Assembly (NCBI GenBank): GCA_903889735.1
Contig: CAISYQ010000217.1
Location: 1 to 32,894 of the forward strand
Direction: 5' to 3'
Length of the DNA: 32,894 nt
Source: an uncultured Methylibium sp.
Lineage (GTDB): Bacteria > Pseudomonadota > Gammaproteobacteria > Burkholderiales > Burkholderiaceae_C
Part shown: piece after piece, positions 3,912-7,692 of the stretch
Layout of the letters: each line of letters starts with the position of its first letter
Numbering within the stretch: the first letter of the stretch is position 1
The notes under the pieces: generated by a model
Seen by the model: the letters and a program-made list of their open reading frames with translations, nothing else
Databases searched by the model: none
What the model was told of the DNA's origin: nothing
Translations under genes and position numbers: made by a program

Positions 3912-4727
3912 ATGGCGATGGACGTGGTGGACTACGAGATCAAGGGCGCGGAGATGCAGTTCGTCGAGGTCGAGCTCGACCCCGGTGAGGCGGCCATCGG
4001 CGAGGCCGGCAGCATGATGTTCATGGACGCCGGCATCGGCATGGACACCGTCTTCGGCGACGGCTCGGCCAGCCAGGGCGGCGGCCTGTTCGGCAAGCTG
4101 CTGGGCGCCGGCAAGCGGCTGGTGACGGGCGAGTCGCTCTTCACCACCGTCTACAGCAACAACGCCAGCAGCAAGCAGCGGGTGGCCTTCGCCGCGCCCT
4201 ACCCGGGCAAGATCCTGCCCATGGACCTGCGGACCCTGGGCGGCACGCTGATCTGCCAGAAGGACGCCTTCCTGTGCGCCGCACGCGGCGTGAGCCTGGG
4301 CATCGCCTTCCAGCGCAAGCTCGGCGTCGGCTTCTTCGGCGGCGAGGGCTTCATCATGCAGAAGCTCGAGGGCGATGGCCTGGCCTTCGTGCATGCCGGC
4401 GGCACGGTGGTCAAGCGCGAGCTCCAGCCCGGTCAGACCCTGCTGGTGGACACCGGCTGCGTGGTGGCCTACACACCCAGCGTCGATTTCGAGATCCAGT
4501 ACGTCGGCAAGATCAAGACGGCGCTCTTCGGCGGCGAGGGCCTGTTCTTCGCCAAGCTCACCGGCCCCGGCACGATCTGGCTGCAGAGCCTGCCGTTCTC
4601 GCGCCTGGCCAGCCGCATCTTCGCGGCAGCCCCACAGCGCGGTGGCTCGCGGGAGGAGGGCTCGGTGCTGGGCGGCTTGGCCGGCGGCGGCCTGCTGGGC
4701 GGCATCCTGGGCGGGGACGACGAGTGA
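3912..4727 (+). CDS. AIM24 / TIGR00266 family protein
   Basis: A 271-residue protein of the AIM24 family, a beta-sheet-rich fold found in bacteria and, as AIM24, in yeast mitochondria. The bacterial biochemical role is not established. Family features include an early ...[17 protein letters not shown] segment, repeated Gly/Phe turns ([21 protein letters not shown]) and a glycine-rich C-terminal tail ending in acidic residues. AGGAGA lies 5 nt before the ATG at 3912; an ATG two codons later is an alternative. There is no signal peptide. The stop codon shares one base with the next gene (TGATG), so the two are probably co-translated. Confidence 0.85.
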
Positions 4728-5410
4728 TGGCGAGCGCGCCGCTGGCCGGCCGCCGGGTGCTCATCACCCAGGCCGACGATTTCATGGGCCCGGTGCTCTG
4801 CCAGGTCTTCGCCGAGCAGGGCGCCGAGGTGCTGGCCGACCGCGGCCCGCTCGGCGACACGCCCACGGTGGAGGCCCGGTTGGCGGCCTATGGCCGGATT
4901 GACGCGCTGGTGGCCAATCTGGCCATCCCCGCGGCCCGCTCGCTGGCCGCGGAGGCCAGCGACGCCGAATGGCGCGCGATGTTCGACGCCCTGGTCGACC
5001 CGCTGCCGCGGCTGGTGCGGGCGGTGCTGCCGCAGATGATCGAGCGGCGCGCCGGCAAGATCCTGGTGATGGGCAGCGCCTCGGCGCTGCGCGGCATGAA
5101 GCGGTCGTCTTCCTACAGCGCGGCGCGCGGCGCCCAGCTGGCCTACGCGCAGGCGGTGGGCGTGGAGGTGGCGCCGCACCAGGTGCAGGTGAACGCCATC
5201 GCGCAGAACTTCGTCGAGAACCCGACCTACTTCCCGCCCGAGGTGCAGGCCGACCCGGTCTTCCAGGAGCGGCTGCGGCGCGAGGTGCCGCTGGGGCGCT
5301 TGGTGGGCGCACGGGAGGATGCGTCCTTCGCGGCCTACCTGTGCAGCGCGGCGGCCGACTGCTTCGTCGGGCAGGTGTTCCCGATGTGCGGCGGTTGGGT
5401 GCCGCGCTGA
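4727..5410 (+). CDS. Halohydrin dehalogenase-like SDR-fold protein (putative)
   Basis: A 227-residue short-chain-dehydrogenase-fold protein with a non-classical active site. The dinucleotide-binding motif TGxxxGIG is absent. Instead T14-x4-F19-x-G21 matches the T-X4-F/Y-X-G motif of halohydrin dehalogenases. The triad reads S117-x12-Y130-x3-R134, with arginine replacing the usual SDR lysine; this is the second halohydrin dehalogenase signature. The C-terminal half carries NPTYFP, VPLGRL and VGQVF, which recall, from memory, HheA/HheC-type enzymes. Known family members convert vicinal haloalcohols to epoxides and use anions such as azide, cyanide or nitrite for ring opening. Whether this protein does so is inference. 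It could instead be an inactive or repurposed SDR. It overlaps the AIM24 gene by 1 bp. Confidence 0.78.
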   Translation: MASAPLAGRRVLITQADDFMGPVLCQVFAEQGAEVLADRGPLGDTPTVEARLAAYGRIDALVANLAIPAARSLAAEASDAEWRAMFDALVDPLPRLVRAVLPQMIERRAGKILVMGSASALRGMKRSSSYSAARGAQLAYAQAVGVEVAPHQVQVNAIAQNFVENPTYFPPEVQADPVFQERLRREVPLGRLVGAREDASFAAYLCSAAADCFVGQVFPMCGGWVPR

Positions 5411-5502
5411 GCCCAGGTCGGGAAGGCGAGACCTCGGCCCCGGTCTGGTGGCGCCAGCTCGCTGCCGCCCCGTGCGGCGCACAATGAACTGAAGGAGCTC
5501 CC

Positions 5503-5790
5503 ATGCCAGACATCACCCTTGCCGAATTCGAGACCCGCGCCCTGGCCCAGGGCTTCGACGAGGTGCTGACCCGCGAATGGGCGCCCGGCCAGGTGGTCGG
5601 TACGCACAGCCATCCCTTCGACGTGAGTGCGCTGGTGGTGCGCGGCGGTTTGCTGCTGTCGGTGGACGGGCAGGATCGCCACCTCTCGGCCGGGCAGCCC
5701 TTCGAGCTGGCCCGCGGTGTACCCCATGAGGAGCGCTACGGCCCCGAGGGCGCCACCTTCTGGGTGGCGCGGCGCAACCCGGTGGACTGA
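5503..5790 (+). CDS. Small single-domain cupin protein
   Basis: A 95-residue protein that is essentially one cupin barrel. Probable metal ligands are H35 and H37 (THSH) in the first cupin motif and H75 (GVPHEE) in the second, consistent with a mononuclear metal site. The glycine turn VRGGLLLSVDG lies between them. AAGGAG sits 5 nt before the ATG. It follows the dehalogenase-like gene by 92 bp on the same strand, so co-transcription is possible. Substrate unknown; there is no signal peptide. Confidence 0.8.
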   Translation: MPDITLAEFETRALAQGFDEVLTREWAPGQVVGTHSHPFDVSALVVRGGLLLSVDGQDRHLSAGQPFELARGVPHEERYGPEGATFWVARRNPVD

Positions 5791-5791
5791 G

Positions 5792-5830
5792 TCCGCTCCC
5801 GCACCGACCGCAGTCCGAGGTGGGAGCGGG
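5792..5830. terminator. Inverted repeat between convergent cupin and aminopeptidase genes
   Basis: Left arm 5792-5805 (TCCGCTCCC..ACC, with a 2-nt bulge) pairs with right arm 5819-5830 (GGTGGGAGCGGG). It lies just after the cupin stop and before the end of the opposite-strand gene. No T-run is present, so it is a possible bidirectional terminator of modest strength. Confidence 0.4.
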
Positions 5831-5868
5831 CACCGAAGCCTCGTCCGGGCGGCCCGCTCAAGGCGGAT

Positions 5869-7692
5869 TCAAGAGCCCAGGGGCTCGGTCCGCGTCATCA
5901 GCCATGCCATCGCGGCGCCGCTCACCAGCGGCGCAAGCCGCTCCCGCACCAGGGCGTGGTAGCGGTCGAGCCAGGCCCGCTCGTCCACCCGCAGCAGAGA
6001 AATCTCCAGGCTGCGGGTGTCGATGGGGCAGAGGGTGAGGGTCTCGAATTCCAGGAACTCGCCGAACTCGTCGGCCGGGGCGGGCACGTTGAGCACCAGG
6101 TTCTCGATCCGCACGCCCCAGCGCCCGGGCCGGTAGAGACCGGGCTCGATGCTGGTGATCATGCCGGCCTCCATCGCCATCTCGGGCGTGGCCACGGCCT
6201 TGCTGATGGACTGCGGGCCCTCGTGCACGTTGAGGAAATAGCCCACGCCGTGGCCGGTGCCATGGCCGTAGTCCAGGCTCTCGGCCCAGAGCGGCGCGCG
6301 GGCGATGGCGTCGAGCATGGGACTGGGTGTGCCGCGCGGAAAGCGCGCGCGGCTCAGCGCGATCGTGCCCTTGAGCACGAGGGTCACATCGCGCCGGATC
6401 GCATCGCTGGGCGTGCCGATGGGCCAGACGCGGGTGATGTCGGTGGTGCCGCCCAGGTACTGCGCGCCCGAGTCGATCAGCAGCAGGCCGTCGGCCACCA
6501 CGCCCTGCGGGGTCGAGATGAGGGCATGCGAGTCCGGCGTGGCGCGGTAGTGCGGCATCGCGCCATTGGCGTTGAAGCCGGCGATCACCGGGAAGCTCAG
6601 CGACACATAGCCCGGCTGCCGGGCGCGTTCGGCGCTCAGGCGCTCGGCGATGGTGAGCTCGGTGAGGGTCTCGCGGCCCAGGGCCTGCTCGAACCAGGCG
6701 TAGAAGGCGCACATCGCGGCGCCGTCGTGGGCCATGGCCTCGCGGATGAAGGCGGCCTCGGCCGCGCCCTTGCGGCTCTTGGCGAGCGTGGAGGGGTTGA
6801 TGGCCTCGATCACCGCCACGCCGGCCGCCACCGCCTCGCGCAGCGCCAGCGTCACGCGCTTGGGGTCGATCAGCAGGCGGCTGGTGGCCGGCAGCGCCGC
6901 CAGCGTGGCGCGAGCCTCGCCGTAGGGCCGCAGCTGCACGCCGTCGGCGGCCAGCACGGCCTGCAGCGCGGCACCCACCTTGCCCTCGCCAACGAAGAGG
7001 CAGGCGCTGCTTGAGTCGATGAGCGCATGGGCCAGGAAGACCGGGTTGTAGTCGACGTCGGCGCCGCGCAGGTTGAAGATCCAGGCGATGTCGTCGAGGG
7101 TGGAGACCAGGTGGTGGCTCGCGCCGCGCTGCACCATCGCCGCGCGCACCTCGGCCAGTCGGGCACTGCGCGGCACCGGGGCATGGGGCGCATGGTGCTC
7201 GTAGACCGGGGTCGCAGGCAGGTCCGGCCGCTCGGGCCAGGCGCCGGCCAGCGGGTCGGTGCCAGTGCGCAGCGCGATCCCGGCGGAGGCCATCGCCGCC
7301 GCCAGCTGCTGCGCCGCCGCCAGTCCCAGCACCGCGCCGTCGGCGGCCAGCACCTGTCCGGACTTGAGCGCCTGGGCCAGCCAGTCGACATGGGTGGTGG
7401 CGCCGCCACTGGCGATCTTCACCAGCTCGATCGTGCTGCCGGCCAGCTCGGCCTCGGCCTGCGACCAGTAGCGGCTGTCGGCGAAGAGCGCGGCCCGGTC
7501 GGCCAGCACCGCCAGCGTGGCCATGGAGCCGGTGAAGCCGGAGAACCACTCGCGACCCTGCCAGTGCGCGGGCAGGTACTCCGAGAGGTGTGGGTCGCTC
7601 GAGGGCAGCAGCACGGCATCGATCTGCTGCGCGGCCATCTGCTCGCGCAGGCGCTCCAGGCGCAGGCGCACGGGGGAGGTCCGGGTGTCCAT
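5869..7692 (-). CDS. Aminopeptidase P family (M24B) Xaa-Pro aminopeptidase
   Basis: A 607-residue three-domain aminopeptidase P, the long form resembling eukaryotic cytosolic APP. It removes an N-terminal residue that precedes proline. Two creatinase-like N-terminal domains span about 8-310 and the pita-bread catalytic domain about 311-540. Dinuclear metal ligands are assignable as D407, D418, H481 (HGTGHGVG), E516 (SIEPGLY) and E530 (RIENL). A C-terminal extension ends near WLDRYHALV. There is no signal peptide, so it is probably cytoplasmic. It is the last gene of a minus-strand operon, 8 bp after ndh; its GAGGA ribosome-binding site overlaps the ndh stop codon. Confidence 0.92.
   Translation of the reverse strand: MDTRTSPVRLRLERLREQMAAQQIDAVLLPSSDPHLSEYLPAHWQGREWFSGFTGSMATLAVLADRAALFADSRYWSQAEAELAGSTIELVKIASGGATTHVDWLAQALKSGQVLAADGAVLGLAAAQQLAAAMASAGIALRTGTDPLAGAWPERPDLPATPVYEHHAPHAPVPRSARLAEVRAAMVQRGASHHLVSTLDDIAWIFNLRGADVDYNPVFLAHALIDSSSACLFVGEGKVGAALQAVLAADGVQLRPYGEARATLAALPATSRLLIDPKRVTLALREAVAAGVAVIEAINPSTLAKSRKGAAEAAFIREAMAHDGAAMCAFYAWFEQALGRETLTELTIAERLSAERARQPGYVSLSFPVIAGFNANGAMPHYRATPDSHALISTPQGVVADGLLLIDSGAQYLGGTTDITRVWPIGTPSDAIRRDVTLVLKGTIALSRARFPRGTPSPMLDAIARAPLWAESLDYGHGTGHGVGYFLNVHEGPQSISKAVATPEMAMEAGMITSIEPGLYRPGRWGVRIENLVLNVPAPADEFGEFLEFETLTLCPIDTRSLEISLLRVDERAWLDRYHALVRERLAPLVSGAAMAWLMTRTEPLGS

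Follow-up and report, generated by a model that had tools for sequence, protein, structure and literature searches.

The gene that we call hheD, carried on a contig of an uncultured Methylibium sp., very probably encodes a cofactor-free D-type halohydrin dehalogenase (HHDH); we put the probability of this assignment at about 0.93. A literature search found one paper that names both HHDHs and Methylibium, a soil study, and no report of an HHDH from Methylibium. The window, by which we mean the whole 32,894-nucleotide stretch of DNA that was analysed, contains the following features relevant to the gene and its setting.

3912..4727, + strand: AIM24 family gene (PF01987), the upstream neighbour, conserved in congeners without an adjacent hheD
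4727..5410, + strand: hheD, D-type HHDH (probable), 227 amino acids
4766..4789, + strand: motif 1, T14-x4-F19-x-G21, predicted nucleophile/halide pocket that replaces the SDR glycine motif
5075..5128, + strand: motif 2, S117-x12-Y130-x3-R134, predicted catalytic triad
5219..5236, + strand: NPTYFP, residues 165-170, a loop conserved among the closer D-type homologues
5503..5790, + strand: small cupin gene (PF07883), located beside hheD and between the AIM24 and aminopeptidase P genes, an arrangement peculiar to the window
5869..7692, - strand: aminopeptidase P-like gene (PF00557), the right border of the extra stretch

The reading frame of hheD translates without an internal stop, and its ATG begins on the final base of the AIM24 stop codon. 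The preliminary description had claimed that the product carries both HHDH motifs and lacks the NAD-binding glycine motif, and we find both claims to be correct. T14, F19, G21, S117, Y130 and R134 occupy the expected positions and are invariant in both homologue alignments (18 and 37 sequences), and the classical SDR signatures T-G-x3-G-x-G and S-x10-14-Y-x3-K are both absent. The window protein combines motif 1 (T-x4-F/Y-x-G near the N-terminus) and motif 2 with an SDR fold, as judged from the model described below, that is devoid of the glycine-rich cofactor motif. This motif definition, and its success at finding active enzymes, is given in PMC4989007.

The motif pattern extends to the relatives of the window protein. 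We checked 120 sequences, comprising the window protein, 80 loci from GTDB contigs and 39 loci from the order and family samples (L120 and L123 were left out, and some genes are present twice, from two collections). Both HHDH motifs are found in 119 of these, and the SDR glycine motif and S-x10-14-Y-x3-K in none. The sole exception is a D-type homologue (L023:1501-2172) that reads T-x4-F-x-A, and thus has no motif-1 glycine, but keeps motif 2. None of the seven SDR paralogues in the same genome as hheD carries both HHDH motifs, and five carry both SDR motifs; one paralogue (L004) has a motif-1-like string, but not both HHDH motifs. A search of NCBIfam returned, among the matches listed (25 of 171), solely general SDR-type families that score far under the cut-offs. 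Judging from the differences at first, second and third codon positions between hheD and the genes of two congeners (42/33/68 and 41/35/63, over 223 codons each), the protein is under constraint.

The closest known enzymes are of the D type. A phmmer search of the PDB placed 7b73 first (7e-97), followed by 8xxb (4e-90), HheB (5e-54) and 6a41 (1e-32); the PDB titles identify 7b73 as HheD2 and 8xxb as a triple mutant of HheD8 with chloride. HheD2, from a gammaproteobacterium, is 68.0% identical to the window protein over 222 aligned residues and shares both motifs and NPTYFP, but comes from a different organism and differs in about one third of its residues. The 8xxb chain is 66.8% identical and is an engineered mutant: the window protein has the wild-type letters of the title at A69 and M124, but S at position 127, where the wild type has R. 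HheB (PDB 4zd6), a 227-residue chain with 46.2% identity, also has both motifs, but with Y for F in motif 1 and a different loop at 160-170. For comparison, HheD19-HheD38 are listed with 57-95% identity to verified HheDs in PMC4989007.

Two trees agree with these identities. The careful tree has 43 hand-picked rows and the quick tree 78 rows (every second of the 80 GTDB loci plus chosen others), both without HheE, HheF and HheG sequences. In the 43-row tree, the window protein groups with HheD2, HheD8, HheB and the D-type homologues in one clade (100/97), and the HHDHs stand apart from three SDRs of the same genome (100/99). The HHDH assignment of the preliminary description is upheld in a tree that includes ordinary SDRs, and the quick tree has the same main split. 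Most branches inside the D clade are poorly resolved. HheB sits on a long branch within D, although the topology test does not reject D as a clade of its own (p-AU 0.088), and the tree program gave a long-branch warning for HheA2, HheC, HheB and the SDRs. The identities of 68% and 67%, together with the grouping with HheD2 and HheD8, indicate that the window protein is a previously undescribed member of the well-studied D subfamily. As an enzyme, it is one more 67-68% relative of two structure-solved D-type HHDHs, and at most a candidate biocatalyst.

An AlphaFold2 model built from the 37-row alignment (mean pLDDT 81.8, pTM 0.82) supports an SDR fold for the window protein. Foldseek ranked 7b73, 8xxb and 4zd6 at the top, with VIA-align Z scores of 26.6, 25.7 and 25.5, respectively. 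Other SDR-fold entries follow close behind (4yqz, 25.4; 8xwk, 25.0), so the fold alone is not decisive. Because residues 161-168, which are part of the expected pocket, have pLDDT values below 50 and the rmsd to 7b73 is ∼6 Å, the halide pocket is not visible in the model. Relatives such as chloride-bound 8xxb suggest that a halide pocket would replace the nicotinamide site, and it is by homology with the solved HHDHs that we infer the HHDH activity, pocket geometry and substrate of the window protein.

In HHDHs, the serine of the triad (Ser117 here) holds the substrate oxygen. In the lyase reaction predicted by homology, Tyr130, with its pKa lowered by Arg134 and with help from Ser117, would deprotonate a vicinal haloalcohol, and the alkoxide would then displace the halide to close an epoxide ring. 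The leaving halide would pass into the motif-1 pocket formed by T14, F19 and G21, at the place where an SDR holds nicotinamide. In the reverse direction, anions such as halide, azide or cyanide could open the epoxide. For HHDHs in general, PMC4989007 and PMC11976700 describe the triad and the motif-1 pocket.

We next consider how widely such genes occur and what accompanies them. With a threshold of E≤1e-40 and the window's own genome included, homologues are present in 33/399 genomes sampled from the order (six of the 33 belong to the distant clade described below), in 27/200 genomes of the family and in 3/6 of the genus. In a sample of the phylum, the same threshold gave 4/398, all four from the window's family. 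A scan of GTDB contigs matched at least 592 stretches, and at least 495 of these encode a relative by tblastn. The family had been described as small and sparsely distributed; the sampled fractions of the order and family agree with sparse, but this number of GTDB loci does not agree with small. The best 80 of the at least 495 loci were examined and, going by their labels and without a count, come mainly from Beta- and Gammaproteobacteria, although some bins carry other labels.

No widely recurring ORF cluster was found in 81 neighbourhoods, made up of these 80 loci and the window. The largest neighbour cluster after hheD itself covers 15 loci at scattered offsets, with a representative that looks like an ABC transporter ATPase, and the next two cover seven loci each. 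These counts come from a crude ORF picker that sometimes chose shadow ORFs in GC-rich genomes, and in the window an antisense ORF displaced AIM24; for this reason, the absence of AIM24 and the cupin was rechecked by tblastn on DNA, as given below. In five of the 80 loci (L057, L063, L079, L087 and L098), an HMG-CoA lyase gene lies directly downstream of hheD, supported in L098 by the Pfam family HMGL-like, and a gene further upstream in these loci looks like an enoyl-CoA hydratase. A leucine-degradation context was rejected as a general setting, since it is confined to these five loci. With so many loci available and no fixed partner among the best 80, the natural role should be testable by comparison of lineages.

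Our guess for the default physiological role is the removal of environmental haloalcohols or epoxides. A search of the window's own genome for an EHN-type epoxide hydrolase found none, which counts against haloalcohols as a carbon source, where such an enzyme would be wanted. The same absence, and that of a widely conserved partner gene, speak for a rival reading in which the window protein would be an SDR relative with another natural reaction, based on different anion chemistry or serving a non-haloalcohol role, and with HHDH activity as a side reaction. The 2016 review (PMC4989007) does not exclude other physiological functions; it also calls HheD through HheD6 experimentally verified, and this, the naming of HheD2 and HheD8 as HHDHs in the PDB and the retention of motif residues that are invariant in both alignments all speak against another natural reaction. 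We regard such a reaction as possible but rather unlikely. For the D-type HHDHs as a group, the natural job may differ from haloalcohol use because the genes are widespread, solitary and mobile and have no conserved partner for haloalcohol degradation; the clearing of endogenous epoxides made by oxidation is one example of such a job, although a job of this kind is, in our view, doubtful.

The position of hheD beside AIM24 was described as an unusual context. Unusual it is, but only this strain has it, and there is no sign of a functional link. The start of hheD overlaps the AIM24 stop by one base, as would be the case if AIM24 and the HHDH formed a functional unit in a translationally coupled operon. 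However, a tblastn search on DNA found an AIM24 homologue in 0/127 other loci with hheD homologues, and a cupin homologue likewise in 0/127 (some places are counted twice, so that not all loci are independent, and some flanks are short, down to 2,069 bases). AIM24 is present in five of six Methylibium genomes, the four others being 86-93% identical to that of the window. In three of these (G561, G456 and G953), AIM24 is followed within ∼0.2 kb by a convergent aminopeptidase P gene, without hheD there, in a longer region of synteny with the window, and two of them (G456 and G561) carry hheD elsewhere, with 76% identity, in a region common to both. A coupled AIM24-HHDH unit is therefore highly improbable. 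We reject AIM24 as a partner on the basis of the 127 loci and the congener synteny, and the cupin as a conserved partner on the basis of the 127 loci; the adjacency of AIM24 looks incidental.

Of the Methylibium genomes compared, that of the window alone carries hheD and the cupin in the interval from AIM24 to aminopeptidase P; our reading is that they were either acquired or moved there within the genus. In another congener (G955, L149), ∼2.3 kb of other DNA lies between the same two genes. The AIM24/aminopeptidase P junction (window 4727-5869) seems to take insertions; inspection by eye found no clear junction repeats in the window. The GC content of hheD is 73.8% versus 70.9% for the window, and its GC3 is 95.6% versus 96.0% for AIM24. 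The nearest rows in the tree by path are the two congeners, with several other genera equally identical at ∼76%. This fit in composition, taken together with the congeners as nearest rows, argues against recent arrival from a foreign source. The tree leaves it undecided if the three Methylibium HheDs share a single clade (p-AU 0.243), and it therefore does not discriminate between gain from outside and relocation inside the genus. A phage or plasmid origin was also considered and rejected: 62 pattern matches in viral contigs yielded none confirmed as a relative, phages gave no match at 1e-20, and plasmids gave one match at 1e-30 (44.5%), on a Novosphingobium plasmid.

The preliminary description had further pointed to NPTYFP and VPLGRL as recalling HheA-type enzymes. 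Both strings are present, VPLGRL at residues 187-192, and both are shared with HheA2. Every row of the 37-row D-type alignment contains NPTYFP, which is not invariant in the more diverse 18-row alignment; a string so constant among D-type proteins is no marker of HheA. HheA2 (1zmo) and HheC (1pwx) resemble the window protein in their motifs and fold, but their identities are 32.9% and 30.2%, and together with 6a41 (36.6%) they form a separate clade (99/91, on long branches) in the 43-row tree; the HheA, HheC and HheG entries of the PDB score ∼1e-15 to 1e-21 in phmmer, in the range of FabG-type SDRs. Because the identity is 68% with HheD2 and 67% with the HheD8 mutant, but 33% with HheA2, an HheA-type enzyme can be dismissed, and the chance that the window protein is either of that type or a new subtype is close to negligible. 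The alternatives offered earlier, a new subtype or another anion-dependent chemistry, are not supported for a protein that lies within D.

A more distant group of proteins with HHDH motifs is found in eight of nine genomes of one small-genome genus of the same order (L035-L037, L141-L145, L150-L156). Their signatures are T-x4-Y-x-G and S-x12-Y-x3-R, and both motifs are present in all seven that were checked of the eight proteins. Three members were compared: their identities are 42-44% to the window protein and 38-46% to HheD2, 8xxb (the HheD8 mutant) and HheB, and the three placed in the 43-row tree group together (97/95) beside D plus B. This clade may represent a further subtype.

A photolyase gene is adjacent to the HHDH-motif gene in four of the five stretches fetched from this clade, with Pfam support in L141; the fifth (L142) ends at a contig end ∼1.1 kb past the gene. 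Among the 80 D-type loci, four (L040, L051, L054 and L065) have a DNA photolyase gene 111-122 bases after hheD, again with Pfam support in one (L051). A search of the literature found no paper joining halohydrin dehalogenase and photolyase. The photolyase gene is ∼110-220 bases away in both the distant clade and one Thauera-type D lineage, and this adjacency would fit a role in light or oxidative stress.
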